From a virus, in the IMG/VR virus record IMGVR_UViG_3300033146_003000, positions 1 through 40,677 of that record: a DNA stretch of 40,677 nt. The stretch is one strand, 5' to 3'. Positions 24,167 to 40,089 of the stretch are shown in pieces. The position numbers and the translations under genes were made by a program. The first letter of the stretch is position 1. Each line of letters starts with the position of its first letter. The notes under the pieces were generated by a model. That model was given only the letters and a program-made list of their open reading frames with translations, was not told the DNA's origin and did not search any database.

Positions 24167-25624
24167 TTAACATCTGTTTGTTAAATATTTCCAAATTTGG
24201 GTTGAACCCATAAAAATACAAGGGGAGATATTATCTTCTTCGCAGTATCTGTCATTTGACCAATTTGCTCCAGCTTTTATTGTAGTTTGTTCTGCTGAAG
24301 TTGGTCGGCATAGTTTTTGTGTGTTATTAAACATATTAGTTGTATCAGTTTGTGAAGTTGTGTCTATGCTTTTTATACATTTGAGGTTTGTGCATCCTTC
24401 CCATGTGTTTATAAAACTAGTCCCTGATGAAGTATCCAAAGCAGGGAATGATGTTAAACCTGAACAATTATTCCAAGCACTACTAAAATCAGTCCCTGCC
24501 GAAGTATCCAACGAAGGGAATGATGTTAAAGATGAACAATCCCGCCAAGCACCATAAAAATTAGTCCCTGACGAAGTATCCAAAGCAGGGAATGAAGTTA
24601 AACCTGAACAACTGTACCAAGCACTACTAAAAATAGTCCCTGACGAAGTATCCAAATTAGGGAATGAAGTTAATCCTGAACAATCCCGCCATGCATATCT
24701 AAAATAAGTCCCTGATGAAGTATCCAAAGCAGGGAATGAAGTTAACCCTGAACAACCCCGCCAAGCACTAGTAAAACTAGTCCCTGACGAAGTGTCCAAA
24801 GCAGGGAAAGATGTTAAACTTGAACAATAGTACCAAGTATAATTAAAATTAGTCCCTGACGAAGTATCCAAATTAGGGAATGAAGTTAATCCTGAACAAT
24901 TACTCCAAGTACTATCAAAATTAGTCCCTGACGAAGTATCCAAATTAGGGAATGAAGTTAAACTATAACATCCATACCAAGCACTACCAAAATCAGTCCC
25001 TAACGAAGTATCCAACGTAGGAAATGGCGTTAAATTATAACAACTATCCCATGCATGTCTAAAATCAGTCCCTGACGAAGTATCCAGAGTAGGGAATGAA
25101 GTTAAACCTGAACATTTGTACCAAGCATAACTAAAACCAGTCCCTGATGAAGTATCTAGAGTAGGAAATGAAGTTAATCCTGAACAATAACTCCAAGCAC
25201 TATTAAAACTAGTCCCTGACGAAGTATCCAAATTAGGGAATGAAGTTAAACCTGAACAATTCCACCAAGCCCTATAAAAATTAGTCCCTGACGAAGTATC
25301 CAATGTAGGGAACGATGTTAGCCCAGAACAGTCTCGCCAAGCATAATAAAAATTAGTCACCCCAGAAAAATCCGTAGAAGCACAACTAAACGTAGTCATA
25401 TTGCTCATTCCATAAAACATATATGTACAATCAGTCAAATCTTCACTAATAACTTGAACTTCAGTTACATCAGTTTTATTTGTATCAAACTGAAACGCAG
25501 TGATAGTATCACTAGAAGTCAACTCCCAAGTACCGTCTCCATTGTCAGTCACCGTTATAGTTCCACCTGATACATTACTTACACCAGGTTGAGAAGGTGA
25601 AGTTACTTTAAAATCTAAAGCCAT
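24167..25624 (-). CDS. BspA/DUF285-type leucine-rich-repeat adhesin, copy C (13 repeats)
   Basis: 485 residues. The cap is nearly identical to copies A and B, and 13 repeats follow. Variable residues around the Trp include YR..WN, NS..SY, SY..YK, RH..DS, DS..SN, NY..YY, TS..RG, YG..RD and IN..EG. The C-terminal cap (CIKSIDTTSQTDTTNMF, PTSAEQTTIKAGANW) is shared with copy A but not B. It starts 4 nt after the amidase gene with AAGGATAAAAA as ribosome site, so this copy is co-transcribed with the lysis genes rather than with the fibre operons. Confidence 0.8.
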   Translation of the reverse strand: MALDFKVTSPSQPGVSNVSGGTITVTDNGDGTWELTSSDTITAFQFDTNKTDVTEVQVISEDLTDCTYMFYGMSNMTTFSCASTDFSGVTNFYYAWRDCSGLTSFPTLDTSSGTNFYRAWWNCSGLTSFPNLDTSSGTSFNSAWSYCSGLTSFPTLDTSSGTGFSYAWYKCSGLTSFPTLDTSSGTDFRHAWDSCYNLTPFPTLDTSLGTDFGSAWYGCYSLTSFPNLDTSSGTNFDSTWSNCSGLTSFPNLDTSSGTNFNYTWYYCSSLTSFPALDTSSGTSFTSAWRGCSGLTSFPALDTSSGTYFRYAWRDCSGLTSFPNLDTSSGTIFSSAWYSCSGLTSFPALDTSSGTNFYGAWRDCSSLTSFPSLDTSAGTDFSSAWNNCSGLTSFPALDTSSGTSFINTWEGCTNLKCIKSIDTTSQTDTTNMFNNTQKLCRPTSAEQTTIKAGANWSNDRYCEEDNISPCIFMGSTQIWKYLTNRC

Positions 25625-27949: not shown

Positions 27950-28338
27950 CTTTCATCTTCTAAATCAACATCATGCAATCTATCGATATATTTTTCAGCT
28001 CTATCGCAACGTTTATCTAGATTTATAATTTTTTCAGTCACTCTTGTCATTGAAACTGTCATATTAGCAAGATTTTGAGCATGTAATCTAGTATAATTGT
28101 CTAGAACTTTTGAAGTTTGTTTAACGGTTTTATCAAGTTTTATCAATTGATTATTTAAATTGACCATTGTGTCCTCAAAATGAACCATTTTGGCGTCTCT
28201 AGCATTTACTTTATCAATAGTTATGTTAACCCTATCTAAAGTATCTTTAACAAAATATGAAGCTATTCCAAGTATAACTGAACTACCCAAAAAACTAAGA
28301 ATAGTTGTTGATACTCCTTTTTTAACGATAGGTGGCAT
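27946..28338 (-). CDS. Membrane-anchored coiled-coil protein, first gene of the lysis/fibre operon
   Basis: 130 residues. One N-terminal membrane segment (TTILSFLGSSVILGIASYFV) is followed by about 100 residues of coiled coil (VNITIDKVNARDAKM, LNNQLIKLDKTVKQTSKVLDN, MTRVTEKIINLDKRCDRAE). It directly follows a late promoter with AAAAAAGGATTGTT as ribosome site and overlaps the holin start, so its product is probably a holin partner (antiholin-like) or membrane scaffold. The architecture also resembles an i-spanin, but a better i-spanin/o-spanin pair lies downstream. Confidence 0.68.
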   Translation of the reverse strand: MPPIVKKGVSTTILSFLGSSVILGIASYFVKDTLDRVNITIDKVNARDAKMVHFEDTMVNLNNQLIKLDKTVKQTSKVLDNYTRLHAQNLANMTVSMTRVTEKIINLDKRCDRAEKYIDRLHDVDLEDER

Positions 28339-28355
28339 AACAATCCTTTTTTGTT

Positions 28356-28363
28356 TATTTATA
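28356..28363 (-). promoter_or_regulatory. T4-type late promoter of the lysis cassette
   Basis: TATAAATA on the minus strand followed by AACAAAAAAGGATTG and the ATG at 28338. It is back to back with a plus-strand early promoter about 10 nt away. Confidence 0.83.
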
Positions 28364-28373
28364 TTTTATATAG

Positions 28374-28396
28374 TTTTAAGAATGTTATGGTATAAT
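28374..28396 (+). promoter_or_regulatory. Host-type sigma-70 (early) promoter
   Basis: TTTTAAG, TGTTATGG and TATAAT (28391-28396), 18 nt before the ATG at 28414. Confidence 0.72.
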
Positions 28397-28413
28397 ATAT
28401 TAAAGGATGAAAA

Positions 28414-28584
28414 ATGAAACCAGAAAAAATTAAAGAGTTATTTGGCGTATTGAAAGCTATGCGAAAAGAACGTGATAAACAGAAAAAACTGGATTATGAT
28501 AGGTATCTTGAACTTGCTTATTTCATTGATGGTATTAATTACACCATAAAAAAATTAAATATCAAAGAACCTAAGCAAGATTAA
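28414..28584 (+). CDS. 56-residue charged hypothetical protein
   Basis: ATG after AAAGGATGAAAA, just downstream of its own promoter. The sequence is helical and charged (MRKERDKQKKLDYDRYLELAYFIDGI), with no recognised motif. Its stop overlaps the start of the next promoter. Confidence 0.65.
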   Translation: MKPEKIKELFGVLKAMRKERDKQKKLDYDRYLELAYFIDGINYTIKKLNIKEPKQD

Positions 28585-28603
28585 AGCTATGATGTGGTAT
28601 AAT
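28581..28603 (+). promoter_or_regulatory. Host-type sigma-70 (early) promoter
   Basis: TTAAAGCTATGATGTGG and TATAAT (28598-28603), preceded by AAGCAAGA. The AAGCAAGATTAAAGCTA string is repeated at 28832-28848 upstream of the MoxR-type gene. Confidence 0.72.
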
Positions 28604-28620
28604 AAATTAAAGGAGAAAAA

Positions 28621-28833
28621 ATGAAAATGTGGTTTACAGTTATTGCTGTTATTGGGCTTTTAATAATGGGGTTTGCTAACATTGCTGGCATTGGTTACGG
28701 TTTATATCTTTGGGGTGCAGTTGGGAATCCTCTGAGTGCTGCAGCATGGGGAGGATTTGTTATTTGGATTAAAATGATTATTACTGGGTTTGTTCTTTTT
28801 ATTGGTGGATATATCAATTCTGATGATTTTTAA
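28621..28833 (+). CDS. Small two-TM membrane protein
   Basis: 70 residues with two hydrophobic segments (TVIAVIGLLIMGFANIAGIG and FVIWIKMIITGFVLFIGGYI) joined by a Gly/Ala-rich loop. The ATG follows AAAGGAG. It lies in its own short unit between two early promoters, so it is probably made early in the host membrane. No family recognised; superinfection exclusion proteins often look like this, but nothing here proves it. Confidence 0.72.
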   Translation: MKMWFTVIAVIGLLIMGFANIAGIGYGLYLWGAVGNPLSAAAWGGFVIWIKMIITGFVLFIGGYINSDDF

Positions 28834-28839
28834 GCAAGA

Positions 28840-28862
28840 TTAAAGCTAGGTTGTGGTATAAT
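28840..28862 (+). promoter_or_regulatory. Host-type sigma-70 (early) promoter of the MoxR-type ATPase
   Basis: TTAAAGCTAGGTTGTGG and TATAAT (28857-28862) followed by AGGGTATAT, the same 3' flank as the promoter of the metallopeptidase/VWA gene at 8476. Confidence 0.78.
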
Positions 28863-28896
28863 AGGGTATATTTAGAGGGGATTTGAAGGAGAGATT

Positions 28897-30012
28897 ATGG
28901 ATATTGGCAAAATGAAAGACGTACTTGGTATCGCACATAAGAGTCAGAACGCAGTTCACATGATTGGAGACGCGGGAATCGGAAAAACCGAAATTGTTAA
29001 GCAATTTGGTATAGAGCAGGGTTATCATGTAGAAGTACTTCAACTGACTGTTATGGATACAGGAGACTTGATTGGTATGCCTATTGTCGAAGAGACTAAG
29101 CATGGTAAAATTACTACTTGGGCTAAACCAGTTTGGCTTCAGAGGGTTAACAAAGCAAATGAAGATGGCAAACATGTAATTGTATTTTTGGATGAACTTG
29201 GAAGATCAAGTACAGAAATTAGACAAGCTTCTCTTCAAATGGTACTTGAAGGTAAAATTCAAGAGCATACTCTTGGAGAATACAACGGTTTGAAATCACT
29301 TATCGTAGTAGCCGACAATCCTTCTGATGATTACGACACAGCTGATTTTGATGCGGCACTTGAAGACCGTTTTATCACTTTGAATGTTGAAACATCAGTT
29401 GAAGGATTCCTTAAATACGCAAGAGAAAAAGGCCTTGAGCCAGTTATCACTGACTTCCTTGCTGAATTTCCAGAGCGTTTGCTGTATAAGCCAGAGTCTG
29501 ATGACGAAAAGGGGTCAACACCAAGAGCATGGGAAGCACTTTCAAGAATTCTTAAAGCAACACCAAAAGATTCAGAAATTTTGTATCCTTTGATTACAGC
29601 AAAAGTCGGCAAAACTATAGGCTCAAGCTTTCTGCATTATTTCAATAATTATATCAATGTGCTTGGAGTAGCTGATATCGTAAATCATCTTAAAGATTCC
29701 GATATTAAAACCGAAAAAGGTCAAAGAAAAGCAGCTAAATCACTAAGAAAAGTAACTGAAAAAATGGAAGTCATCAGCGCGACTGAACTCGCAGAGAAGC
29801 TTCTGAATTCTTATTTCAACAATAAAGATGATGTGACTGCTGAAGTAATTGCTGTTTATGTTATCTCTTTGAATAGAGAAGTTGGAGTAGGCATCCTTAA
29901 AAATTGGAAAGAAGGCGACGATAAGCATAGAAACTTTTATGTCACCGACTTCACAGCAGCTACTCCAGACAAATGGTTTATCAAAGAAATTTTGAAAAAT
30001 GCCATTAAATAA
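28897..30012 (+). CDS. MoxR-type AAA+ ATPase
   Basis: 371 residues. Walker A GDAGIGKT (24-31), Walker B VFLDE (96-100), sensor 1 near ADNP (139-142), arginine-finger region LEDRF (about 155-159) and GSTPRAWEAL later, as in MoxR/RavA-like ATPases. These act with VWA-domain partners; the likely partner at 8506 is 19 kb away but under a nearly identical promoter. The ATG follows GAAGGAGAG. The base composition is less AT-rich and codon choice is more host-like than in the tiny genes downstream, suggesting acquisition. The last codons overlap the start of the next gene. Confidence 0.87.
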   Translation: MDIGKMKDVLGIAHKSQNAVHMIGDAGIGKTEIVKQFGIEQGYHVEVLQLTVMDTGDLIGMPIVEETKHGKITTWAKPVWLQRVNKANEDGKHVIVFLDELGRSSTEIRQASLQMVLEGKIQEHTLGEYNGLKSLIVVADNPSDDYDTADFDAALEDRFITLNVETSVEGFLKYAREKGLEPVITDFLAEFPERLLYKPESDDEKGSTPRAWEALSRILKATPKDSEILYPLITAKVGKTIGSSFLHYFNNYINVLGVADIVNHLKDSDIKTEKGQRKAAKSLRKVTEKMEVISATELAEKLLNSYFNNKDDVTAEVIAVYVISLNREVGVGILKNWKEGDDKHRNFYVTDFTAATPDKWFIKEILKNAIK

Positions 30013-30433
30013 TATTTCTTATGGTATCTACCCACCGAAATATGTGGGTAGTACTGTATATTATAAAGACATTATTATATTTAGAGTTGAAAATGACAAA
30101 ATATTAGATGCTTATTCTTATGATCTTAGCGGTAAAAAAAGAAAAAAAATAAACAAAAAAGATATATCATACCATCCAGTTTTAACAACATTTTTTAAAC
30201 AAGTCAAAATTGTTGATTCAAGTGTTTTGACTAATTCATCAAGCAGAAGTTATTGGTTATTTAATTCTGAAAAGGAAGCATTTATCCAAAAAATTATATG
30301 TTTTAAAATTTTAAGAGATTATTATAACAATAATGAAATAGAAAATAGAAAATTGTTTGACTCAATGATTACTACAAATATTGATAATGTTCTTAACGAC
30401 ATAAAAGAAAAAGAACCAGAGTATTTTTTATGA
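29999..30433 (+). CDS. Tagged hypothetical protein, first of the tag array
   Basis: 144 residues. It starts inside the end of the MoxR-type gene (14-nt overlap), so translation is coupled. Beta-rich N-terminal half (STVYYKDIIIFRVENDKILD), helical C-terminal half, ending EKEPEYFL. The tag codons CCA GAG TAT TTT TTA TGA overlap the next ATG. No family recognised. Together with its neighbours it is in a transcript starting with the MoxR-type ATPase. Confidence 0.7.
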   Translation: MPLNNISYGIYPPKYVGSTVYYKDIIIFRVENDKILDAYSYDLSGKKRKKINKKDISYHPVLTTFFKQVKIVDSSVLTNSSSRSYWLFNSEKEAFIQKIICFKILRDYYNNNEIENRKLFDSMITTNIDNVLNDIKEKEPEYFL

Positions 30434-30708
30434 ATAAAATGTTTAGCTATGATATAAAATCTGAAGAGGCTAGAAGATTTGTGTATATATTTTTAACAGA
30501 TTTGACTCTTTTCGAGTATAAAGATATGAAAAAAGCGTATAAGGAAGCTGTTAAAATAAAAAAAGAAAAAGGTATATATTCACATCTTGATAAAGATATA
30601 AACTCTTATTTGATGCCGTTTGCCTATATTATTGTGGTTTGCTTTCTTATATTTTTTAAATATAAAATAAAAAAATTTGAAAAAAAATATCCAGAGTACC
30701 TATTATGA
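30430..30708 (+). CDS. Tagged single-pass membrane protein, paralogue 1
   Basis: 92 residues. A cytoplasmic-looking N-terminal region (LTLFEYKDMKKAYKEAV) is followed by one membrane segment (LMPFAYIIVVCFLIFF) and the basic tail KYKIKKFEKKYPEYLL. By the positive-inside rule the tail with the tag faces the cytoplasm. The gene at 30932 is a paralogue, and the last 35 nt before the tag are identical in both. GAG and TGA in the tag overlap the next gene. Confidence 0.72.
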   Translation: MNKMFSYDIKSEEARRFVYIFLTDLTLFEYKDMKKAYKEAVKIKKEKGIYSHLDKDINSYLMPFAYIIVVCFLIFFKYKIKKFEKKYPEYLL

Positions 30709-30935
30709 TGTATGATAAAGTTAAAGTTGGAGATATTATTGAAGTTGAATTTAATTATCATTCAGCCAAAGAAATCAGAACTGGAGTTGTTAAAGCTAAA
30801 GGAATAGATGCTGAGGGTCCTTATGCGAATTTGGATGTTATTAAATATTCTTTTTTTGTTGTTTTAAAGAATGATGATAAAAACATTATAAAGCGCATAT
30901 ATACATTTGAAAATGATCCAGAGTATTTTTTATGA
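30705..30935 (+). CDS. Tagged small SH3-like protein
   Basis: 76 residues. KVKVGDIIEVEFNYHSAKEIRTGVVKAKGI has the strand-turn-strand pattern of SH3/KOW-like barrels. It ends ENDPEYFL and overlaps the next gene through TATGAG. It lies between the two membrane-anchored paralogues, giving the order membrane, soluble, membrane. Confidence 0.68.
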   Translation: MMYDKVKVGDIIEVEFNYHSAKEIRTGVVKAKGIDAEGPYANLDVIKYSFFVVLKNDDKNIIKRIYTFENDPEYFL

Positions 30936-31186
30936 GTAAAAATATAATAACTTTTTTATTTAGCACTTTAACTTATGACGAATACAAAAATTTTAAAGAA
31001 GCAATAACAGAATTTGATAGAGAAACTGTTACGTTTAAAGGTATGAAGGAAGATATAAAAATCTATTATGCTGAGTATTCAAAAGTGGGCAAAGGTGTGT
31101 TTTTAGCTATAGGCATTGTGATGTATTATTTTATAAAATATAAAATAAAAAAATTTGAAAAAAAATATCCGGAGTATTTGTTATGA
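30932..31186 (+). CDS. Tagged single-pass membrane protein, paralogue 2
   Basis: 84 residues. LTYDEYKNFKEAITEFDRE resembles LTLFEYKDMKKAYKEAVKIK of the copy at 30430, followed by a membrane segment (GVFLAIGIVMYYFI) and the same KYKIKKFEKKYPEYLL tail. The N-terminal parts have diverged while the tail DNA stays identical over 35 nt, suggesting gene conversion or recent replacement of the 3' end. Confidence 0.72.
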   Translation: MSKNIITFLFSTLTYDEYKNFKEAITEFDRETVTFKGMKEDIKIYYAEYSKVGKGVFLAIGIVMYYFIKYKIKKFEKKYPEYLL

Positions 31187-31386
31187 AAATAGGAGACGAA
31201 GTTGTCTTTAAAGATTATTTAAAAAATATTGATTTATTTACTGTATGGGTAATATCAGAAATAACCGATAGAAGCTATATACTTAAAAATAAAAAGGGAA
31301 AATGGACGTCTGTGCCATTAAAAAACATTAAGAGTTATTACCTTTATTCCGATGTTAAAAATGATTACCCAGAGTATTTTTTATAA
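31183..31386 (+). CDS. Tagged small SH3-like protein
   Basis: 67 residues, MKIGDEVVFKDYLKN start, then VWVISEITDRSYILKNKKGKW, typical of a small barrel. It ends KNDYPEYFL. The Glu codon is GAG but the stop is TAA, and the next ORF starts 11 nt later with its own AAAAGGAAAA site: an intermediate between the coupled and uncoupled forms. Confidence 0.7.
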   Translation: MKIGDEVVFKDYLKNIDLFTVWVISEITDRSYILKNKKGKWTSVPLKNIKSYYLYSDVKNDYPEYFL

Positions 31387-31397
31387 AAAGGAAAATT

Positions 31398-31511
31398 ATG
31401 CAATATAAAAGAATTGGCAATTATCATATTCAATGTAAGAGTTTGTTTTTTTTTTGGAAAAGGCATTGTAGCAATATGCTTGGTTATTCTTTTACTGAAT
31501 ATTATCTATGA
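31398..31511 (+). CDS. 37-residue ORF with a degenerate tag and a T10 tract
   Basis: ATG after AAAAGGAAAATT. The peptide is short, Cys-containing and ends FTEYYL, a decayed form of PEYFL, then TGA overlapping the next ATG. Ten consecutive T at 31446-31455 encode FFF in the middle. A slip of the T-tract would shift the frame, so this may be a shortened or phase-variable remnant of a larger tagged gene. Its reality as a protein is uncertain. Confidence 0.45.
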   Translation: MQYKRIGNYHIQCKSLFFFWKRHCSNMLGYSFTEYYL

Positions 31512-31732
31512 TGTATTGTAAAAAAGGAGATTTTATTTATGTTAATAGTGACGATAATCGCTATGCACATAAAACGTTAATATGTAATGAAGCAACTTCT
31601 AATTTCGCTAAATTTGTTCCAATTTATGATTATTCTGATATCCCAATTACGCTTTATCAATCTGAAGAAAGTTTCAATTCAATAAAAGCAATAAAAATCA
31701 CAAAAGAATTACACCCAGAATATTTCCTTTAA
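31508..31732 (+). CDS. Tagged small protein
   Basis: 74 residues, start overlapping the preceding stop (ATGATG). CKKGDFIYVNSDDN suggests a small SH3-like start. It ends KELHPEYFL with GAA and TAA; a promoter begins right after the stop, and nothing overlaps the tag. Confidence 0.68.
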   Translation: MMYCKKGDFIYVNSDDNRYAHKTLICNEATSNFAKFVPIYDYSDIPITLYQSEESFNSIKAIKITKELHPEYFL

Positions 31733-31734
31733 CC

Positions 31735-31761
31735 TTTTTTTAAGCTTACTTGTGGTATAAT
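31735..31761 (+). promoter_or_regulatory. Host-type sigma-70 promoter giving a possibly leaderless mRNA
   Basis: TTTTTTAAGCTTACTTGTGG and TATAAT (31756-31761). The next ATG starts only 5 nt after the −10 element, at the expected transcription start. Confidence 0.75.
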
Positions 31762-31766
31762 AGGGT

Positions 31767-31973
31767 ATGAAAAGATTGAATACAGGTGATTATATTAAAG
31801 TAAGAAAACGTTTTAGTAATGAAATTATAATCGTTGAAGTTTTATATGTGTTCTATCGAAATAACAACACTATAGAAAAAATATTGACTGAAGATAATTT
31901 TGATTCTGGTACTTTTCCAGAAGATGTTATTGAATATTATACTAAAGAAGAATATCCGGAGTATTTTCTATGA
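31767..31973 (+). CDS. Tagged small SH3-like protein, possibly leaderless
   Basis: 68 residues, MKRLNTGDYIKVRKRF start, ending KEEYPEYFL. There is no Shine-Dalgarno and no room for a leader between the promoter −10 box and the ATG, so it may be read from a leaderless mRNA. The tag codons CCG GAG TAT TTT CTA TGA overlap the next gene. Confidence 0.68.
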   Translation: MKRLNTGDYIKVRKRFSNEIIIVEVLYVFYRNNNTIEKILTEDNFDSGTFPEDVIEYYTKEEYPEYFL

Positions 31974-32173
31974 ATTTGAAAATAGGTAATTTTTATATTG
32001 ATCATTATGATATTCTACATAAAATGGTGAGTTATGAACCCAAAACAAGTCCATGGGTTTTTAAAAGCGATAAAAATAAATTATTTAATAAGTATGGTTT
32101 AAGTGCAGCATCTAAAAATTTTGATTTAATTAAAGAAGTGACTAAAGAAGAACACTCGGAGTATTTTCTATGA
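31970..32173 (+). CDS. Tagged small protein with a P-to-S tag variant
   Basis: 67 residues, MNLKIGNFYIDHYDIL start, ending KEEHSEYFL. The tag has Ser (TCG) instead of Pro (CCG), a single base change that leaves GGAG intact. The stop TGA overlaps the next ATG. SH3-like fold possible. Confidence 0.66.
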   Translation: MNLKIGNFYIDHYDILHKMVSYEPKTSPWVFKSDKNKLFNKYGLSAASKNFDLIKEVTKEEHSEYFL

Positions 32174-32391
32174 GAATTAAAGATGTATTAGATAAAAATA
32201 TTATAATAACAAATTCTAATAGCAAACTATTTGAAAATATGATTGGTGTTATTTGTGAAGTATCTAACGCTACTCAATATAATACTGCTATTTTAAAAAC
32301 TAAAACAAGAAGTTCATATTATCTTCATTTTGAAACAGAAGTTCCATGTTTTGTGGTAACAAAAGAAGAACATCCGGAGTATTTCTTATGA
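32170..32391 (+). CDS. Tagged small protein
   Basis: 73 residues (MRIKDVLDKNIIITNSN start), ending KEEHPEYFL. The middle part (MIGVICEVSNATQYNTAILKTKTRSSYYL) is beta-rich. Tag codons CCG GAG and TGA overlap the next ATG. Confidence 0.66.
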   Translation: MRIKDVLDKNIIITNSNSKLFENMIGVICEVSNATQYNTAILKTKTRSSYYLHFETEVPCFVVTKEEHPEYFL

Positions 32392-32594
32392 GAATAGTTA
32401 AAATAAAACCTTGGAATCAAATGCCAGATGATAATAATATCATGAAACATTTATGTAAAACTACTCAAAAACTTTTTAGATATTATTCTCCTGGTTTGCC
32501 AGATAAATGGATAACAAAAGATGGGCATTTCATTAATGATACTCATATCGAGAAAGAATACACAAAAGAAGAATATCCAGAATTATTTCTTTAA
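32388..32594 (+). CDS. Tagged small protein with PELFL ending
   Basis: 68 residues from the ATG at 32388, chosen because it overlaps the preceding TGA and has GGAG in the upstream tag; an in-frame ATG at 32346 lies inside the upstream gene without a site. It ends KEEYPELFL with GAA and TAA, followed by a promoter. Basic and Trp-containing (KPWNQMP, LPDKWITKDG); no family. Confidence 0.66.
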   Translation: MRIVKIKPWNQMPDDNNIMKHLCKTTQKLFRYYSPGLPDKWITKDGHFINDTHIEKEYTKEEYPELFL

Positions 32595-32600
32595 CCTTAT

Positions 32601-32623
32601 TTTAAACTAGTTTACGGTATAAT
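32601..32623 (+). promoter_or_regulatory. Host-type sigma-70 (early) promoter
   Basis: TTTAAACTAGTTTACGG and TATAAT (32618-32623), 20 nt before the ATG at 32644. It follows the stop of a tagged gene after only a few bases. Confidence 0.72.
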
Positions 32624-32643
32624 AAAATTATAAAAGGAAAAAA

Positions 32644-32889
32644 ATGACTATAACAAATACTGGGCATTATCATCAAGGATTAGCGAGTATTTATCATGTA
32701 AAATTAAGAAAGATCTATAATAAATATAAAAGGGTAAAAAGGGGTAAATTGGCTGATATTCTTGTTGTTTATCCTTGTCAACATTCAGAATCAAAAATTG
32801 AAAAATATAAATTAAACAACAAATATATAGTTAAATATGATGATTTGTATGATTTTTTAGTTAATAAGTACCCGGAGTATTTTTTATGA
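32644..32889 (+). CDS. Tagged small basic protein
   Basis: 81 residues, ATG after AAAAGGAAAAAA. Lys-rich (VKLRKIYNKYKRVKRGKLADI) with a beta-type middle, ending NKYPEYFL. The GHYHQGLASIYHV start and basic surface could suit RNA binding, but no family is recognised. Tag GAG and TGA overlap the next gene. Confidence 0.66.
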   Translation: MTITNTGHYHQGLASIYHVKLRKIYNKYKRVKRGKLADILVVYPCQHSESKIEKYKLNNKYIVKYDDLYDFLVNKYPEYFL

Positions 32890-33131
32890 TTCTTTATAAA
32901 ATTATTGATAAGTTTGGTTTATTTGATACTGTATTAATAGGCGAAATATATTATGATAAAATAGATAAATGCGATAATATTATAATACGGGATGGAGACG
33001 TTGAACCTTTTATGGACAAATTTAATGATGGAGAAATATTTAGATATAACCCAGAATGGAAACTAGTTGATATCGGCAATATTTCAACATTAAGAAAAGC
33101 AAAAGAAAAATATCCGGAGTATTTTTTATGA
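32886..33131 (+). CDS. Tagged small acidic protein
   Basis: 81 residues, acidic and beta-rich (GLFDTVLIGEIYYDKIDKCDNIII), ending KEKYPEYFL. It lies between a basic tagged protein and the tagged nucleotidyltransferase, overlapping both by 4 nt. Confidence 0.66.
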   Translation: MILYKIIDKFGLFDTVLIGEIYYDKIDKCDNIIIRDGDVEPFMDKFNDGEIFRYNPEWKLVDIGNISTLRKAKEKYPEYFL

Positions 33132-34027
33132 GATTTACCAAATATATCACGAAACCAAATTTTGATTTAAGTTTATTTAAAATATTATATGAAAATAATA
33201 TAAGATATTATATCGCTGGTGGAAGTGCTTTAACCCTTGCGCAACGATCTGCGGACATAGATAGTATGTTTTCAGATATTGATGTATATTTTTATACAAA
33301 AGAAGATTACCAAAAAGCTAGAGAAATTACTAATTCATACATTGATAAAAAAGAAGAAAAAAAATTGTCTGGTGATTTGCTTTTTGAAATTGTGAATTGT
33401 TATTTAGCATATTCAAACGAAAGACTAGATTGTTTTTATATCGATGGACAAGAAGTACAATACATCAAGATGAATTTTGGCTCTTCTGAAAAAATAACTG
33501 ATGAATTTGATTTATATAATTCACGATATTGGAGTTTTTATCCTTTTGAAGAGGTATATACAAAACAAAAAAAAGATACATTATATAATATAAAAACAAA
33601 AAAATATAATAACTTTTTTACTTTACAAAGAGTAAAGAAATATCAAGTAAATAAACATATTGACCCCTCAAATATTTTTAAGAATATAGTCGAAACAGTA
33701 CAAAATAAAAATATAGACTTGAATAAAGATAATACAAACTATAGAAATACAGATTCAGCAAGCAATATGAATTTACAATATTTTATGATGTTTATTGAAA
33801 ATCCGCATTATATAGAAGAAATAAATAACTCAAATATTGATTTTGAATGGTTGATGAAAGATATTCATGTCTTATATTTACAGGATGGAATGCAACATCT
33901 TTATTCTCCTTTGTTATTTTATTTAGCATTACAAAATCATAACAGTATACCTGATACGATAACAAAAGATGATATAGAAATCAATAAACAAAAAATGTTA
34001 GCACAATACCCAGAATATTTATTATAA
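33128..34027 (+). CDS. Nucleotidyltransferase-fold protein with PEYLL tag
   Basis: 299 residues. YYIAGGSALTL (28-37) and SDIDVYF (49-55) form the nucleotidyltransferase-fold signature GGS ... DxD with Asp50 and Asp52; DEFDLYN further on fits the third acidic residue in a FDL motif seen in viral members. The C-terminal half is helical and unrecognised. It would transfer a nucleotide to an RNA or protein; the substrate is unknown. The end AQYPEYLL uses GAA and TAA, and the next gene starts 10 nt later with its own AAAGGAAT site, so the tag is present here without any coupling role. Confidence 0.72.
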   Translation: MRFTKYITKPNFDLSLFKILYENNIRYYIAGGSALTLAQRSADIDSMFSDIDVYFYTKEDYQKAREITNSYIDKKEEKKLSGDLLFEIVNCYLAYSNERLDCFYIDGQEVQYIKMNFGSSEKITDEFDLYNSRYWSFYPFEEVYTKQKKDTLYNIKTKKYNNFFTLQRVKKYQVNKHIDPSNIFKNIVETVQNKNIDLNKDNTNYRNTDSASNMNLQYFMMFIENPHYIEEINNSNIDFEWLMKDIHVLYLQDGMQHLYSPLLFYLALQNHNSIPDTITKDDIEINKQKMLAQYPEYLL

Positions 34028-34037
34028 AGGAATAAAA

Positions 34038-34469
34038 ATGGAACCACAAAAATTAGAAAAATATAGATACATTTCAGAAAAACATGATGTTATGAATTTT
34101 GATTTTATTATATTTCAAGTATCAGATAAATATCTAGATATAGTAGTAAATAATAAAGAATATAACAGAATTAAAAAAGATAATTTTGAAAAATTAATAG
34201 CTAGAGTTATTGATATGAAGAATAGTCAGTATTTAGTTCTGAATGTAGAAGATGATATTGAATTATATAATATTAACAAAATGGAGCTTATAAAAGTTAA
34301 AAAATTAAAAAAATATAAAATTATACACACTGAAAAGGGTGCTTTATTTGAGTTTTTAAAAGAAGCTTATAATAAAAAAATAGCGGAACTTATCGAAAAT
34401 AATCAAAATCCTGATGGTTTTATTAACGGTTTAATTATGATTAATCAACAAATGGAATATAATGTATAA
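34038..34469 (+). CDS. Hypothetical protein
   Basis: 143 residues, ATG after AAAGGAATAAAA. Beta strands alternate with Lys-rich segments in the first 100 residues (FDFIIFQVSDKYLDIVVNN), followed by a C-terminal helix. No tag: it ends MEYNV. The stop overlaps the start of the next gene by 8 nt. Confidence 0.65.
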   Translation: MEPQKLEKYRYISEKHDVMNFDFIIFQVSDKYLDIVVNNKEYNRIKKDNFEKLIARVIDMKNSQYLVLNVEDDIELYNINKMELIKVKKLKKYKIIHTEKGALFEFLKEAYNKKIAELIENNQNPDGFINGLIMINQQMEYNV

Positions 34470-34692
34470 AGAACAACAAATTATTATAACAGGACTATTA
34501 ATTTTATTTCTTGCCGCTGTAGGTTTTATATACTTATTATCAATTTATATGATGTTTAATTTTAGTTGGCTTTATGTTTGGGGTGTATATATTAGTGTAT
34601 TTATAGTGGCTGGTATTAATGGGTTTAACGATGATGATACGCCAGATGATATGCCAGATGATAAAGGGTTGCCTGATAATGCTTTAAAATAA
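34462..34692 (+). CDS. Small two-TM membrane protein with acidic tail
   Basis: 76 residues. Two hydrophobic segments (IIITGLLILFLAAVGFIYLL and WLYVWGVYISVFIVAGI), then an acidic repeat-like tail (DDDTPDDMPDDKG). Unknown role; its general form resembles the small membrane protein at 28621. Confidence 0.68.
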   Translation: MYKEQQIIITGLLILFLAAVGFIYLLSIYMMFNFSWLYVWGVYISVFIVAGINGFNDDDTPDDMPDDKGLPDNALK

Positions 34693-34698
34693 TTTTTC

Positions 34699-34706
34699 TA
34701 TAAATA
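34699..34706 (+). promoter_or_regulatory. Plus-strand T4-type late promoter
   Basis: TATAAATA followed by CCCATAAAGGATAATT and the ATG at 34723. It puts one tagged gene under late control. Confidence 0.65.
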
Positions 34707-34722
34707 CCCATAAAGGATAATT

Positions 34723-34965
34723 ATGGAATACATTTTAGTAGGATCAGCAGATTTTATAACAAAAGAAACAGCCATTAAAATGGGTTATACCCCAGACGAT
34801 TGTCCTAGTTGTCCAGCATTAATTTATTCGAAAGACGGTTCTTATGATACTGGTTTATTATATATTGAGATTGATAACGTAAAAAAAGTGATACTTCAGC
34901 AATATATACTTCACACATATAACATTGAAGAGTCAAAAAATACACATCCCGAATTATTTCTTTAA
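34723..34965 (+). CDS. Tagged small protein under a late promoter
   Basis: 80 residues with DDCPSCPALIY (Cys pair, CxxC-type) in the middle, ending KNTHPELFL with GAA and TAA. AAAGGATAATT precedes the ATG. Nothing overlaps the tag; the uvsW promoter follows. Confidence 0.68.
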   Translation: MEYILVGSADFITKETAIKMGYTPDDCPSCPALIYSKDGSYDTGLLYIEIDNVKKVILQQYILHTYNIEESKNTHPELFL

Positions 34966-34969
34966 GAAA

Positions 34970-34993
34970 AGTTTAATGCTAATATAGTATAAT
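34970..34993 (+). promoter_or_regulatory. Promoter of uvsW, possibly giving a leaderless mRNA
   Basis: AGTTTAATGCTAATATAG and TATAAT (34988-34993). The uvsW ATG begins 5 nt after the −10 box. Confidence 0.65.
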
Positions 34994-34998
34994 ATAAA

Positions 34999-36465
34999 AT
35001 GCATATTAGAAAACACAATCAAAAATTAGAAATATTTATTGAAGATAAAGAGCAAGCCAAAAGTTTGATGGATTTATTGTCATGTTATGAACCAGGTTAT
35101 CAACATGACACTCTTTATCAAATGGGCAAATGGGACGGTAGAAAAAAATTTTATAAAATTAAAGTTATGGAAAACGGATGGTTTTTTATAACGGATCTAG
35201 GTTTCAGAAATAGGGTTCTTCGATTTTTTAAAAAAGAAATACCACAACAAAAAAAGAATTCCGATTCAATTGATTTTTTAAAAAAAGAAATACCAAAACT
35301 TCCATTTAAACCTTATAAACATCAGCTTAAACTTTTCTTAGGTTTGATAAGTAATTTAAATCATCTTGGTATATCATCTGTAGGTTCTGGTAAATCATTG
35401 GCATTTTATCTTGCTACTAAATATTTTTATGAAAAAAATCAAAAAATTCTTATACTTGTGCCTAGCATTATGCTTGTAGAACAATTATACCAAGATTATA
35501 AATCATATTTTTGTGATTTTCTTGATAAAATTCAGCAAATAGGAGGCGAGTTTAAAGATAAAAATATAAAGCAACCTATTGTCATTTCTACATGGCAAAG
35601 CGCGGTTAAATCTGATCTTAGTAAGTTTGATATAGTGATGAATGACGAAACTCACCAGGCTAAAGCTCATGTGCTAAATTCAATATTAAAATCAAACAAT
35701 TTCAAAAGAAAGCTTGGTGTAACAGGGACAATGCCAATAATAGAAAAGGATTATATGACTTTAGAATCAAATTTTGGGGAACCTGTTAGGTATATAAACG
35801 CCAAACAAATGATTCAACAAGGTTTAGCAACTGATGTAACAGTTGTTACAACTTTTTTAAATTATAATAATGGTAAAGGCATACCAAAAAAATCTATAAA
35901 AACTTACCATGAAGAAATTAAATTTATGAAAGAACACACTCCAAGACAAAAATTTGTAAATAATTTATTAAAAAAACTAAAAGGAGTAACTGTAGCTCTT
36001 TATAATCATACTGAGCATGGAGTAAAAACATGGGAAAATTTAACAGGCATAAAATATAAAAAAGTTTCTTTTGATAAACAAAAAGAACTAGGTGTGTTTT
36101 TTATATCTGGAAAAACAAGCCCAAAAATAAGAGAACAAATACGTCAATATTTAAATACTGTAGAAAACGCTGTTGTTATAGCTCAGTATAATATTATGTC
36201 AACTGGAATTAATATTCCAAAATTGAAGAATCTTGTTTATATCAGTTCAAACAAATCTTATATACAAGTTATACAATCTATCGGCAGAGTTTTAAGGCTT
36301 CATAAATCAAAACAAAAGGCATATCTTTATGACATAGTAGATGTAATGAATGGGAAAAGGAAAGATGATAATTATTTGTTAAAACATTTCTGGGAAAGAG
36401 AAAGTTTTTATACCAGTGAACAATTTAATATGATTGAAAAAGAAGTCTATTTAAAAAATATTTAA
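34999..36465 (+). CDS. uvsW: Recombination/branch-migration helicase UvsW (SF2)
   Basis: 488 residues (T4 UvsW 503). It is an ATP-dependent DNA/RNA helicase that unwinds branched DNA and R-loops and switches replication from origin to recombination mode. The N-terminal double-stranded-DNA binding domain with YEPGYQHDTLYQMGKWDGR matches T4. Walker A is VGSGKS (about 129-134), motif II is DETH (about 215-218), motif III is VTGTMP, and motif VI is QSIGRVLR. There is no ribosome site; ATG at the expected transcription start suggests a leaderless mRNA. In T4 uvsW is a late gene, but here the promoter is host-type. Confidence 0.92.
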   Translation: MHIRKHNQKLEIFIEDKEQAKSLMDLLSCYEPGYQHDTLYQMGKWDGRKKFYKIKVMENGWFFITDLGFRNRVLRFFKKEIPQQKKNSDSIDFLKKEIPKLPFKPYKHQLKLFLGLISNLNHLGISSVGSGKSLAFYLATKYFYEKNQKILILVPSIMLVEQLYQDYKSYFCDFLDKIQQIGGEFKDKNIKQPIVISTWQSAVKSDLSKFDIVMNDETHQAKAHVLNSILKSNNFKRKLGVTGTMPIIEKDYMTLESNFGEPVRYINAKQMIQQGLATDVTVVTTFLNYNNGKGIPKKSIKTYHEEIKFMKEHTPRQKFVNNLLKKLKGVTVALYNHTEHGVKTWENLTGIKYKKVSFDKQKELGVFFISGKTSPKIREQIRQYLNTVENAVVIAQYNIMSTGINIPKLKNLVYISSNKSYIQVIQSIGRVLRLHKSKQKAYLYDIVDVMNGKRKDDNYLLKHFWERESFYTSEQFNMIEKEVYLKNI

Positions 36466-36482
36466 GTTTAATAGTATATAAT
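36461..36482 (+). promoter_or_regulatory. Host-type sigma-70 promoter of the clamp gene
   Basis: TTTAAGTTTAATAG and TATAAT (36477-36482), overlapping the uvsW stop. AAAGGAAAAG precedes the ATG at 36507. Confidence 0.7.
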
Positions 36483-36506
36483 ATATAAAATGAAAAAAGG
36501 AAAAGA

Positions 36507-37193
36507 ATGATTAATAATAAAACGAGAACAATTCTAAAAAGTTTATTAGGTTTGAATAATTCAATGGTGATAAGTTATCCAACAATGACGTTAACAGATA
36601 GTTTTAAATCTATATTTTGTAGAGTTAATTTGAAAGATATAGATGAGGAATTTGAAACTATTGGTATTTATGATGCGGCTAATTTTTTATCAGCATTAGA
36701 ACTTCTTGATGACCCAAAGATTGAAATTAAAGATAATATCATTAAAGCTACAGATACAGAATCAACTATGGAATTTGTAACAACAGATGTGGATTCTTTA
36801 TCTGAAACTGTATTTAAGGAATCGATAGTAGATAGAACTATGGATTTTCCTTCGCTTATAGAATTTAAATTCACTACAGATATGCTTAATAAAATAAAAA
36901 AGGCTGCTGGTGTATTTAAAACTGCTGATACTATGTTTTTAAATAATTCAGATAAAGTATCAATTTCTCTTGGTCAATTTGAAAGTTTTGAAACTTCACA
37001 AAACACATTCAGTATTAATGTTGATACTGAGCCTAGTAAAAAAGAGTTTAAGTTAGCAGTTCCTCTTGAAAATATTTTAAAATTACCTAATGTAAATTAT
37101 GATTTTGAGGTAAGATATAATGAGGAAAAAGATGCTTATAGAATTGTTTTGAAAAATGAAATTTATACATTTATTCTTTCATTAATGAAATAA
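36507..37193 (+). CDS. 45: Sliding clamp gp45
   Basis: 228 residues, exactly the length of T4 gp45. It is the trimeric processivity ring that holds the polymerase and, in T4, activates late transcription. TRTILKSLLGLNNSMVI aligns with TTALLKNFATINSGIML at the T4 start. IGIYDAANFLSALELLDDPKIEI aligns with VAIYDLNGFLGILSLVNDDAEI, and the C-terminal strand pattern is kept. It lies between uvsW and gene 32 and ends just before the long leader of gene 32. Its presence with TATAAATA promoters fits T4-like late control. Confidence 0.85.
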   Translation: MINNKTRTILKSLLGLNNSMVISYPTMTLTDSFKSIFCRVNLKDIDEEFETIGIYDAANFLSALELLDDPKIEIKDNIIKATDTESTMEFVTTDVDSLSETVFKESIVDRTMDFPSLIEFKFTTDMLNKIKKAAGVFKTADTMFLNNSDKVSISLGQFESFETSQNTFSINVDTEPSKKEFKLAVPLENILKLPNVNYDFEVRYNEEKDAYRIVLKNEIYTFILSLMK

Positions 37194-37205
37194 GGAGGTT
37201 TAATG

Positions 37206-37270
37206 GTTTAAAAGTTTAAAAAATGTTTAATGGTTAGAGGTTTAATAAGAAAAATGTTTAAAAGTTTAAA
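37206..37270 (+). promoter_or_regulatory. Repetitive A/U/G leader of gene 32, possible autoregulatory operator
   Basis: The 15-nt string GTTTAAAAGTTTAAA occurs at 37206-37220 and again at 37256-37270, 50 bp apart, within an 85-nt leader that consists almost only of A, T and G. In T4, gp32 represses its own translation by cooperative binding to an unstructured A/U-rich leader. The same function is proposed here. The second copy overlaps the AAAGG ribosome site. Confidence 0.5.
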
Positions 37271-37278
37271 GGAAATAA

Positions 37279-38223
37279 ATGAATTTTGATTGGAATAATT
37301 TAAAAGAAAAATTACAAGATACAGCGTTGACAAACGGAACAAAAAAAGTATATGAAACAGATGACAGATTTTATAAATTGTCAAGAGATGAAAACGATAA
37401 TGGTGGGGCATTAATTAGATTTGTACCTTCTAAAGATGAATTGATGTTTGTGAAAATGACAAAAATTAATGCAAGACAAACTGATGGATCAAAAAGATTT
37501 GTATCAGAATGGAGTCCGTTGACTATTGGCAAACCAGACCCATTTAATGAAAAGTTTTTGAAACTCTGGGGTGAAAACAAAGAAAAAGAAGCAAAAAAAT
37601 ATAGCAGATCTTTCAGATACATTTCAAATATTGTTGTAGTTAAAGACCCAGCAAATCCAGAAAACAACGGTAAAACTTTCCTATTGGATATGTCACCTAC
37701 ATTATTCAATAAAGTATTAGAAGCTGCTGAGCCACCTGAATCAGAATTAGCACTTGGCGCAGAACCTAAAGAAGTTTATAACCCAGTAAGAGGCAATAAT
37801 TTCCTATTGAAAGTATCACGAGCAGCTACTGGATTTTTAAGCTATGAGACATCAAAATTTGATGAAAATATAACTTCTCTTTATAAAGATGAGGCTGAAG
37901 CTGAAAAAGAAATTATGAAAAATACTTACGCCTTGAATGATTTTCTTGACGAGAAGAATTTTTTATCTTATGACGAGCTTAAAGAAAAATTAGCTTGGTT
38001 TGACGGTGAAACAGCATCAAATGATAAAAAAGATGAGCCAAAAGAAACAGAAACAGTACAAGAAACAGTACAAGAAACAGTACAAGAAACAGTACAAGAA
38101 ACAGTACAAGAAACAGTACAAGAAACAGTACAAGAAACAGTACAAGAAACAAAGCCTGTGACTTCAGCTAATGATACAACAGATGATGAACTTGATGCGT
38201 TGTTTGACGAATTGGAAGATTAA
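37279..38223 (+). CDS. 32: Single-stranded DNA-binding protein gp32 with VQET repeat linker
   Basis: 314 residues (T4 301). It coats ssDNA in replication and recombination. Matches include the basic N-terminus, SRSFRYISNIVVVKDPANPENNGKTFLLDM (T4 [28 protein letters not shown]) and GNNFLLKVSRAATGFLSYETSKF (T4 [22 protein letters not shown]). The four zinc ligands of T4 gp32 (Cys and His near 64-90) are absent: this region has no Cys. The acidic C-terminal tail (DDELDALFDELED) is kept and is joined by a linker of eight VQET repeats. The ATG follows AAAGGAAATAA. Confidence 0.9.
   Translation: MNFDWNNLKEKLQDTALTNGTKKVYETDDRFYKLSRDENDNGGALIRFVPSKDELMFVKMTKINARQTDGSKRFVSEWSPLTIGKPDPFNEKFLKLWGENKEKEAKKYSRSFRYISNIVVVKDPANPENNGKTFLLDMSPTLFNKVLEAAEPPESELALGAEPKEVYNPVRGNNFLLKVSRAATGFLSYETSKFDENITSLYKDEAEAEKEIMKNTYALNDFLDEKNFLSYDELKEKLAWFDGETASNDKKDEPKETETVQETVQETVQETVQETVQETVQETVQETVQETKPVTSANDTTDDELDALFDELED
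38056..38151 (+). repeat. 8 x 12-bp tandem repeat in the gp32 linker
   Basis: The 12-nt unit GTACAAGAAACA is repeated eight times without visible variation, encoding (VQET)8. Each copy gained or lost changes the linker by four residues without frameshift. Confidence 0.97.
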
Positions 38224-38225
38224 AA

Positions 38226-39227
38226 ATGACATCATTACTTGTAGATTTATCTCCTATACTCTACGGTAATATTTTTTCAGCGACAAATGCTATTAAAGAT
38301 AGATTGTCGTTGAATGAAAACAAAAAATATCCATTTAATGAATATAAAGATATTTTTATATATAAAGTTTTTGAAGAACTATCAGGGCTGAAAAATAAAT
38401 TTGATGCTGATGAAGTAGTTATATGTACCGATGCTGGTAATTATTGGCGAAAAGATGTTTGGCCTGGTTATAAAGCTAAAAGAAAAGAGATAAGAGATAA
38501 ATCAAATGTCGAATGGGATCAAGCACATGAAATAATAGCTAGTTTGAAAACTATCTTCAAATACACTTCTTTCAAATATATAGATGTGCCAAAATCTGAG
38601 GGGGATGATTGTATTTTTGTGCTTAGCGATTATTTAGCTGAACAAAATAATAATGTTATCATTTATAGTTCAGACCATGATTTTGTACAATGTTTAAAAC
38701 ATCCAAATGTAAAATTTTGGAGAACTACAAGAACACAAGGTATGCAAAATTCTTCTTTTTATGAACCTGAAGCTGGTGAGCTACTACATACTCAACTCGA
38801 ACACGTGATAGGCGGCGATCCTGGTGATGGCATCAATAATATAAAAGGGTATAGTCGCTTTAGCAAATTGTTTAAAGAAAAATATCCTAATAAAACAGAA
38901 CTTCAAATGTACCCTAGAAGATTTGAACTTGATAAATTATTTGAATCAAAATTTGGAGAATCCGCTTATAATCATCCTAGATATGGTTATAAAATGTTTT
39001 TGAATTCGAAAAAAACAGTAGAAGATTTATTAAATGAAAATGAAATATATAAATTAAATTATAAATTAAACAGACAAATAGCTCTGCCTGAAGGAATACC
39101 AACAGAAATAAGTTCAGAAATTATTAAAAATTATAATAATCAACCTAAAAAATCTCCAGCTGAACTTCAAAAATATTTTACTGAAAATCATCTTTTTGAA
39201 ATGAATGCTAGAATACCACTTCTATGA
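38226..39227 (+). CDS. rnh: RNase H / 5'-3' flap exonuclease
   Basis: 333 residues (T4 305). It removes RNA primers from lagging-strand fragments. Matches to T4 RNase H: VVICTDAGNYWRKDVWPGYKAKRK (T4 VLCIDNAKSGYWRRDFAYYYKKNR), SEGDDCIFVLSDYL, YSSDHDFVQCLKHPNVKFW (T4 ISSDGDFTQLHKYPNVKQW) and GGDPGDGINNIKG, which supply the acidic metal-binding residues. It lies 2 nt after gene 32, whose product stimulates it in T4. Co-transcription fits. Confidence 0.92.
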   Translation: MTSLLVDLSPILYGNIFSATNAIKDRLSLNENKKYPFNEYKDIFIYKVFEELSGLKNKFDADEVVICTDAGNYWRKDVWPGYKAKRKEIRDKSNVEWDQAHEIIASLKTIFKYTSFKYIDVPKSEGDDCIFVLSDYLAEQNNNVIIYSSDHDFVQCLKHPNVKFWRTTRTQGMQNSSFYEPEAGELLHTQLEHVIGGDPGDGINNIKGYSRFSKLFKEKYPNKTELQMYPRRFELDKLFESKFGESAYNHPRYGYKMFLNSKKTVEDLLNENEIYKLNYKLNRQIALPEGIPTEISSEIIKNYNNQPKKSPAELQKYFTENHLFEMNARIPLL

Positions 39228-39445
39228 AAAAACAATTAAGAAAACAGTCAAAAAAACATAGCCATCTTGAAGTCATAACAAATCAAATATCAGGAATTGT
39301 TGTGGGATGGCTTATTGTTTATTTTATATTTCCAATGATAGGAATACCTGTTACTGTAACTCAAACTACAATATCTTCTTTAATATTTTTTATTGCTTCT
39401 TACTCAAGGATGTATATTATAAGACGAATTTTCAACTCTTTTTAA
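39224..39445 (+). CDS. Small membrane protein (DUF7220-like)
   Basis: 73 residues. A basic start (KKQLRKQSKKHSHLEV) precedes two membrane segments (ISGIVVGWLIVYFIFPMIGI and ISSLIFFIASYSRMYII), ending RRIFNSF. The order QS...LE...N...G......FP..G......TTI....F...S..R.Y..RR.F matches a widespread small phage membrane protein of unknown role. The ATG overlaps the stop of the RNase H gene (ATGA). Confidence 0.72.
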   Translation: MKKQLRKQSKKHSHLEVITNQISGIVVGWLIVYFIFPMIGIPVTVTQTTISSLIFFIASYSRMYIIRRIFNSF

Positions 39446-39463
39446 GCTTTTTTATGATATAAT
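39438..39463 (+). promoter_or_regulatory. Host-type sigma-70 (early) promoter
   Basis: CTTTTTAAGCTTTTTTATGA and TATAAT (39458-39463), overlapping the end of the membrane-protein gene, 17 nt before the ATG at 39481. Confidence 0.75.
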
Positions 39464-39480
39464 AAAATTAAAAGAGGGTT

Positions 39481-39633
39481 ATGTATACGGTAATTATAAA
39501 TGATTATGATGTTATGTTTGGAGAATCCGATAAATCTACAAAAAATTTTAATACTAAATTAGAAGTAGAAAAGGAATTTATAAAAATGATAAATGATCAT
39601 ACTACAGAAGAGTATCCGGAGTATTATTTGTGA
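39481..39633 (+). CDS. Tagged 50-residue protein
   Basis: ATG after AGAGGG. MYTVIINDYDVMFGESDK start, ending TTEEYPEYYL with Tyr in place of Phe. The tag codons CCG GAG TAT TAT TTG TGA overlap a GTG start of the next gene. Unknown function. Confidence 0.62.
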   Translation: MYTVIINDYDVMFGESDKSTKNFNTKLEVEKEFIKMINDHTTEEYPEYYL

Positions 39634-39839
39634 AGATTAAAATAGGAGATTATTTTTCAACAAGAAAAGGTGAAGTTGTTAAAATAATAGAATTTACAGA
39701 TAATCCTCCATGGTTATATATGGGAAACAACGGACTGAGTTATGATGGTTCTGGAAGTTGCGACCCTTATGGTGATGCTTCAGAATTTGATCTTATCAAA
39801 GAAGTAACAAAAGAAACTTATCCGGAGTATTTTTTATGA
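39630..39839 (+). CDS. Tagged small SH3-like protein with GTG start
   Basis: 69 residues. GTG overlaps the preceding stop (GTGA), with GGAG in the upstream tag as ribosome site. MKIKIGDYFSTRKGEVVKIIEF start is the SH3/KOW-like pattern; the Gly/Asp-rich loop (SYDGSGSCDPYGDASEFDLI) is unlike the others. It ends KETYPEYFL and overlaps the next gene. Confidence 0.68.
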   Translation: MKIKIGDYFSTRKGEVVKIIEFTDNPPWLYMGNNGLSYDGSGSCDPYGDASEFDLIKEVTKETYPEYFL

Positions 39840-40060: not shown

Positions 40061-40066
40061 CCTCTT

Positions 40067-40089
40067 TTTAAGCTTCTTTATGATATAAT
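40067..40089 (+). promoter_or_regulatory. Host-type sigma-70 (early) promoter
   Basis: TTTTTAAGCTTCTTTATGA and TATAAT (40084-40089), 21 nt before the ATG at 40111. Confidence 0.77.

Follow-up and report, generated by a model that had tools for sequence, protein, structure and literature searches.

A recurrent gene junction in T4-like phages consists of a conserved C-terminal peptide tag and an independent, apparently host-type promoter

The stretch of DNA analysed here (the window) is the IMG/VR virus record IMGVR_UViG_3300033146_003000, 40,677 bases long. It encodes a T4-type sliding clamp and a replicative helicase whose best matches, at ~30–33% identity, are in T4-like phages of Campylobacter and Vibrio. 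Eighteen plus-strand open reading frames (ORFs) end in the peptide PExxL, hereafter the tag, and one more ends in the variant HSEYFL. A nucleotide search of phage records with the window gave no match, and single-protein searches of viral contigs gave no close relative; using the tag DNA as a search pattern, we found relatives, including an IMG/VR phage of 125 kb (G001). Phage contigs in a Campylobacterales MAG (G008) are close relatives of the window (MoxR 67% identity); the MAG contig C132 is the closest relative of the window and syntenic with it. Rfam and tRNA scans of the window returned nothing. The tagged genes, and two genes discussed below as a candidate partner module, are as follows.

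7439–8236, plus strand: tagged P-loop kinase-like gene (THPELFL); not upstream of the VWA gene in C132
8246–8452, plus strand: small tagged gene (CPEYFL); not upstream of the VWA gene in C132
8506–9834, plus strand: DUF2201 metallopeptidase/VWA protein (Pfam DUF2201), candidate partner module by co-occurrence
28897–30012, plus strand: MoxR-like AAA ATPase, candidate partner module by co-occurrence
29999–30433, plus strand: tagged gene adjoining MoxR, with tagged orthologs in G001, the Vibrio phage Va1 and a MAG contig
30430–33131, plus strand: 11 tagged genes in an array, mostly coupled through ATGA; one of them ends in the variant HSEYFL
31953–31973, plus strand: example of a coupled tag, with CCGGAG (Shine-Dalgarno), TATTTTCTATGA and stop/start overlap
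33128–34027, plus strand: tagged 299-aa protein (QYPEYLL), nucleotidyltransferase-like by inspection, with tagged orthologs in G001 and C132; no Pfam match
34723–34965, plus strand: tagged gene (HPELFL), with a tagged ortholog (YPELFL) in C132
39481–40060, plus strand: three tagged genes, of which the first and second are each coupled to the gene that follows

The tag lies at the very C-terminus and has the form [YHF]-P-E-[YLE]-[FYL]-[LI], with a Pro-Glu-x-x-Leu/Ile core; over 161 tagged proteins (from the window, G001, the Vibrio phage phiTY18 and G003), the consensus extends to K-E-K-[YHF]-P-E-[YLE]-[FYL]-[LI]-COOH. C-termini were counted with an internal control, which gave an expectation of 0.05–0.27, that is, fewer than 0.3 per genome by chance. 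Tags ended 17 of 68 ORFs in the window, 56 of 196 in G001, 9 of 56 in G003, 36 of 360 in the IMG/VR phage G005, 21 of 38 in G006 and 30 of 227 in the Campylobacterales MAG contigs; G004 is a further tagged record. Among Vibrio phages, the counts were 77/326 in phiTY18, 81/332 in Va1, 78/334 in SRILMA and 80/327 in pv27, and T4, KVP40 and Campylobacter phage CJLB-13 had none. Alteromonas phage AD45-P1, which also carries DUF2201 and MoxR, has 3 tagged proteins of 135 (HPEYFL, WPEYCL and APELLL), including a 297-aa nucleotidyltransferase-like protein. A lone tag in G002 may be due to chance or be a single member.

The tagged share of ORFs is about 10–29% in the four Vibrio phages, G001, G005 and the MAG contigs. 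Within one branch of the T4-like phages, between roughly a tenth and a quarter of the proteins, mostly small and unrelated ones, end in one peptide. We know of no other phage that marks so many of its proteins in this way, and full-text searches of an open-access library, which lacks most subscription journals, gave no description of such a phage tag. A variant with Ser for Pro occurs in two lineages, as HSEYFL (window 31970–32173) and HSEIFI (Va1 104340–104682).

The tag could be a structural motif of a single duplicated family, in which the tagged proteins are paralogs and the tag belongs to their common fold. Paralogs do occur among the tagged proteins (clusters of 8, 4 and 3), and many resemble small beta-barrel proteins by eye. 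However, the 161 proteins fall into 135 sequence clusters by their bodies, and the tag is also found on P-loop kinase-like, 299-aa nucleotidyltransferase-like, putative membrane and Cys-rich proteins, which makes this origin very improbable. In an ortholog common to the window, G001 and Va1, the tag was kept at 31–39% identity.

The initial annotation had noted that tag, stop codon and promoter recur together at four sites in the window. All four copies are present; its list took in only tags with a promoter behind them.

8432–8481, plus strand: junction 1, tag codons for CPEYFL, TAA and promoter TTTTAAGCTT-N8-TATAAT for the DUF2201/VWA gene
31712–31761, plus strand: junction 2, tag codons for HPEYFL, TAA and promoter for 31767–31973
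32574–32623, plus strand: junction 3, tag codons for YPELFL, TAA and promoter CGGTATAAT for 32644–32889
40040–40089, plus strand: junction 4, tag codons for YPEYFL, TAA and promoter TGATATAAT for the tRNA-nucleotidyltransferase-like gene at 40111
34945–34993, plus strand: a fifth, looser tag-TAA-promoter junction (HPELFL), upstream of a UvsW-like helicase
39440–39463, plus strand: the same promoter module, TTTTAAGCTT-N8-TATAAT, behind an untagged gene, that is, a promoter without a tag

Aligned, the four junctions have a mean column identity of 82%. The junction core TTTCTTTAACCTCTTTTTAAGC occurs exactly in 2 copies in the window and in none of 100 dinucleotide shuffles, and the 8435 and 31715 junctions are identical at 55 of 64 positions from the tag through the promoter start. 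The 32578 copy, which encodes PELFL, is looser. By sequence match, TTTTAAGCTT-N8-TATAAT promoters stand at three of the four junctions, with a variant at the fourth; the TGnTATAAT form ascribed to all four fails at the 32578 copy, where CGGTATAAT has no TG before TATAAT.

Each junction is made up of two independent modules, a tag-coding 3′ end and then a promoter. Like the promoter at 39440, related promoters at 28374, 28598 and 28857 stand behind untagged genes. The promoter part of the 39440 copy agrees with the 40084 copy at 31 of 37 positions, and the 40084 copy with the tagged 8476 copy at 30 of 37. By hand count, about 5 of 15 promoters in the window and 8 of 27 in G001 stand behind tagged genes, close to the tagged-gene share; because untagged genes precede promoters about as often as expected from that share, the promoter does not form a special unit with the tag. 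The promoter behind the tag appears to be of the Campylobacter sigma70 type, an ordinary host type. The Campylobacter jejuni sigma70 promoter has a −35 TTTAAGTnTT and an extended −10, with −35/−10 spacers given as 15–19 bp (PMC3824568, PMC3656092). The TTTTAAGCTT and TGnTATAAT of the window match these elements at the level of sequence, but the spacing is shorter, with 8 nt separating TTTTAAGCTT from TATAAT. Tagged phage-like contigs were binned with Campylobacterales, which agrees with the promoter type of the window, although binning is no proof of host.

In C132, the VWA gene has the same promoter, directly behind an untagged gene that resembles window 7011–7247 at its start. The two tagged genes that lie between those positions in the window (7439–8452) are absent from C132, and the 8435 junction's stop codon, TTAACCTCTTTTTAAGC, is the exact point at which similarity between the two sequences begins. 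The breakpoint that had been predicted to fall within a junction was found at this one, the one junction of the four that could be compared. Promoters lie on both flanks of the insertion (7312–7335 and 8458–8481). C132 also has a single tagged gene in place of the window's 11 (30430–33131), flanked by the tagged ortholog and the tagged protein of 299 aa. Where the window has one UvsW-like reading frame, C132 has two side by side.

Promoters on both flanks of the insertion, and a similarity to C132 that begins at the stop before the promoter, would suit a composite element in which tag, stop and promoter move as one mobile regulatory cassette. Such cassettes, the promoter-stem-loop elements (PeSLs) of T4-type phages, were reportedly described by Arbiol et al. 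2010 and Comeau et al. 2014, as cited in PMC4503421. The junctions of the window resemble PeSLs in having a short repeat between small T4-like phage genes, with an adjoining early-type promoter and gene gain or loss at the site. Unlike PeSLs, the repeat of the window is mainly coding (peptide tag plus Shine-Dalgarno (SD) and start of the next gene) and has no stem-loop, its promoter and tag are independent, and most joints (ATGA) have no promoter. By sequence, an early-type promoter does lie in the element, and breakpoints of gain or loss do fall in it (at the tag in Vibrio phages; at the 8435 junction). A stem-loop or terminator does not: folding against shuffles gave no clear stem-loop at the four junctions (z −1.1 to 1.7), and a terminator scan of 28300–40677, which covers three of the four, gave no terminator-like site at those three. 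Tag and promoter are found separately, and the C132 promoter stands behind an untagged gene; we consider movement as a single composite element quite unlikely.

Repeats have been proposed as recombination sites in the Campylobacter group II phages CP21/CP220/CPt10 also, where they are mostly extragenic arrays (core AAACTTAAAGCAA) separating large modules of the genome (PMC4546147). The junctions of the window resemble them as repeats proposed to serve recombination. In contrast to the window, the CP220 part and CJLB-13 contained no PExxL tags.

Coupling to the next gene alters the codons of the tag. Where the stop codon overlaps the next ATG (ATGA), the tag codons CCG-GAG are the SD of the next gene, whereas elsewhere they are usually CCA-GAA; most coupled tags complete GGAG 8 nt upstream of the ATG, and the Glu codon of uncoupled tags is mostly GAA, which also prevails elsewhere in the genome. 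GAG was used in coupled versus uncoupled tags at 10/10 versus 1/7 in the window, 34/37 versus 7/19 in G001, 29/31 versus 9/46 in phiTY18, 27/30 versus 14/51 in Va1 and 10/12 versus 2/24 in G005 (P = 1.6 × 10−20, pooled over the window, G001, phiTY18, G005 and the MAG contigs). The MAG contigs are an exception, preferring GAG in both classes (5/5 coupled, 21/25 uncoupled) without a codon difference.

Start-associated sequences (SAS) of cluster K mycobacteriophages are a DNA/RNA repeat before gene starts that contains an SD (PMC3203893). The tag is likewise a conserved SD-containing repeat directly upstream of many starts (GAG/GGAG before ATGA in coupled tags). Unlike SAS, it encodes a conserved C-terminal peptide and persists where there is no SD; it is more than a start signal, since it stays where no gene is coupled. 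A role in translation only, with the tag as mere read-through of a standard SD and ATGA overlap and a peptide of no consequence, would explain the position of GGAG and the GAG codons of coupled tags. However, uncoupled tags make up 41–63% of the total in the window, phiTY18 and Va1 and still encode the peptide, by other codons; Pro is not dictated by GGAG; and PExxL was found neither at the ends of untagged ATGA-coupled genes nor in the ATGA-coupled genes of T4 and KVP40. The uncoupled tags rule this explanation out unless each derives from a recently coupled tag, and we regard it as exceedingly unlikely.

Among 74 ortholog pairs of phiTY18 and Va1, selected on the phiTY18 tag only, PE was retained in 73, compared with about 50 expected from a body identity of 82%. 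Changes in the P and E codons of uncoupled pairs were synonymous in 12 cases and nonsynonymous in 0 (bodies 734/883; P = 8 × 10−5). The DNA of the tag varies (CCT/CCC/CCA, GAA/GAG, CTT/CTG/CTC/TTA) while the peptide stays. Codon choice, synonymous-only change and inheritance in 73 of 74 pairs indicate that selection acts on the peptide itself; as judged from these comparisons of sequence, the same C-terminal peptide on unrelated proteins is under protein-level selection.

We listed gene indels among phiTY18, Va1, SRILMA and pv27, then read their DNA breakpoints. The initial annotation had proposed that in related phages small genes come and go with breakpoints inside the junction, and this was largely borne out: both breakpoints lay at tag, stop or ATGA in 9 of 10 unique indels of a tagged gene beside another tagged gene, compared with clean gene boundaries in 11 of 36 other indels. 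Median breakpoint homology was 15.75 nt for the former and 4.5 nt for other gene indels (P = 0.0015), although tag similarity by itself lengthens the measured homology. At SRILMA 138681–138984 and phiTY18 171663–171978, both missing in Va1, the crossover fell within the tag or at its start, and the left gene therefore now bears the lost gene's tag, giving two chimeric cases. These breakpoint figures are partly circular, because tags resemble one another anyway and selection favours intact genes; such selection accounts for part of the precision, since 11 of the 36 other indels also break cleanly. The Va1 6037–6364 indel could not be resolved, and the phiTY18 112874–113207 indel was rejected as a joint event, being an internal deletion.

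Precise breakpoints, chimeric tags, longer breakpoint homology and the 55/64 identity of the 8435 and 31715 junctions could all mean that the repeat is kept for gene shuffling in the first place, with the shared peptide only copied along. Under this ordering of cause and effect, the joint would be the reason for the common 3′ end, as had been suggested. The peptide is nevertheless conserved though its DNA varies, with synonymous changes only, and tag status is inherited with the gene; the common 3′ end is better explained by selection on the peptide. Tagged genes are also gained or lost no more often than untagged small ORFs: 5 of 79 tagged genes had no ortholog, compared with 18 of 122 untagged small ORFs, some of which may be false ORFs, and the joint therefore does not visibly raise the rate. 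Similarity between unrelated genes does act as a recombination joint as far as breakpoints at tag, stop and ATGA go, but the promoter is independent of the tag and turnover is no faster. Shuffling as the primary cause is unlikely; the gene-swapping role of the joint is real but probably secondary, a by-product of the conserved tag.

The junction is best read, and we think probably so, as a conserved C-terminal tag module followed by an independent host-type promoter, with the tag doubling as SD and any crossover role following from it. Its left module would be a gene end with [YHF]PE[YLE][FYL][LI]-COOH, kept by the phage lineage on many small, mostly unrelated proteins. Where the next gene overlaps (ATGA), CCG-GAG would be chosen, so that the tag DNA is also the SD of that gene; where it does not overlap, ordinary codons would give the same peptide. 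The right module would be a sigma70 promoter of the host type that starts at the stop codon, whether or not the gene before it is tagged. In many genes, tag, stop and start have nearly identical DNA, so that crossovers there would insert or delete complete tagged genes while preserving a functional tag and start.

Short linear signals at C-termini include ssrA-type degrons, encapsulin cargo-loading peptides, PDZ ligands and the clamp-binding tails of T4. Like such signals in general, the tag is short, ends in a hydrophobic residue and occurs on many unrelated proteins; unlike them, it is gene-encoded on about 10–29% of a phage's ORFs. It matches no C-terminal motif known to us and fits no known kind that we can name. 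A hydrophobic C-terminus behind Pro-Glu, shared by unrelated small proteins, suggests a docking peptide, which would most likely bind one common partner. AlphaFold models were weak (mean pLDDT 74 and 57); in one of them, with modest confidence, the tag is predicted to form a short helical turn behind a helix. A fold search with the model of the 29999–30433 protein gave no significant match.

G001 and Va1 have few genes in common that T4, KVP40 and CJLB-13 lack, and among those also in the window, only MoxR and DUF2201/VWA have a recognizable enzymatic role. The set further includes a 210-aa protein, lysozyme-like or structural, and the tagged ortholog; DUF2201 is present in G005 too. MoxR/DUF2201-VWA occurred in every long tagged record tested, but in untagged phages as well. 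The module was rejected as a sufficient cause of the tag, and it is no more than a lead, because LIT1, SBP1, Av-05, phiTE and AR9 carry DUF2201 without tags. Proteins of the 8506–9834 type are called ‘HNH endonuclease’ in PHROGs and many phage records and DUF2201 in Pfam; the former label looks like a propagated misannotation.

We tentatively propose, as a possibility that falls short of an even chance, that a T4-like lineage sends between a tenth and a quarter of its proteins to a single receptor by an encoded C-terminal tag, that the same dozen-odd bases are at once the peptide signal, the ribosome-binding site for the following gene and the crossover joint through which tagged genes join the array, and that the receptor may be the phage's own MoxR/DUF2201-VWA machine. 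Many of the small early genes of phages have no known function. If the proposal is true, such genes could be assigned to a functional class on sight by their shared tag, one peptide would suffice to fish for the common binding partner that the tag predicts, and the entry of new small genes into a regulated, translated array would be explained as a single step.

Some other proteins of the window also stood out. On the minus strand, 16798–18018, 18686–20122 and 24167–25624 encode three proteins of 72-nt repeats (LTSFPxLDTSSGT..., 36–38 copies in total); these are probably tail-fibre-like, and by eye the repeats resemble BspA/DUF285 repeats. An SSB-like protein (37279–38223) has about eight VQET repeats in a row followed by an acidic C-terminus. 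At 3228–3875, a protein with a signal-peptide-like start resembles an OmpA/porin-like beta-barrel by eye, and a similar gene stands at the same place in C132.
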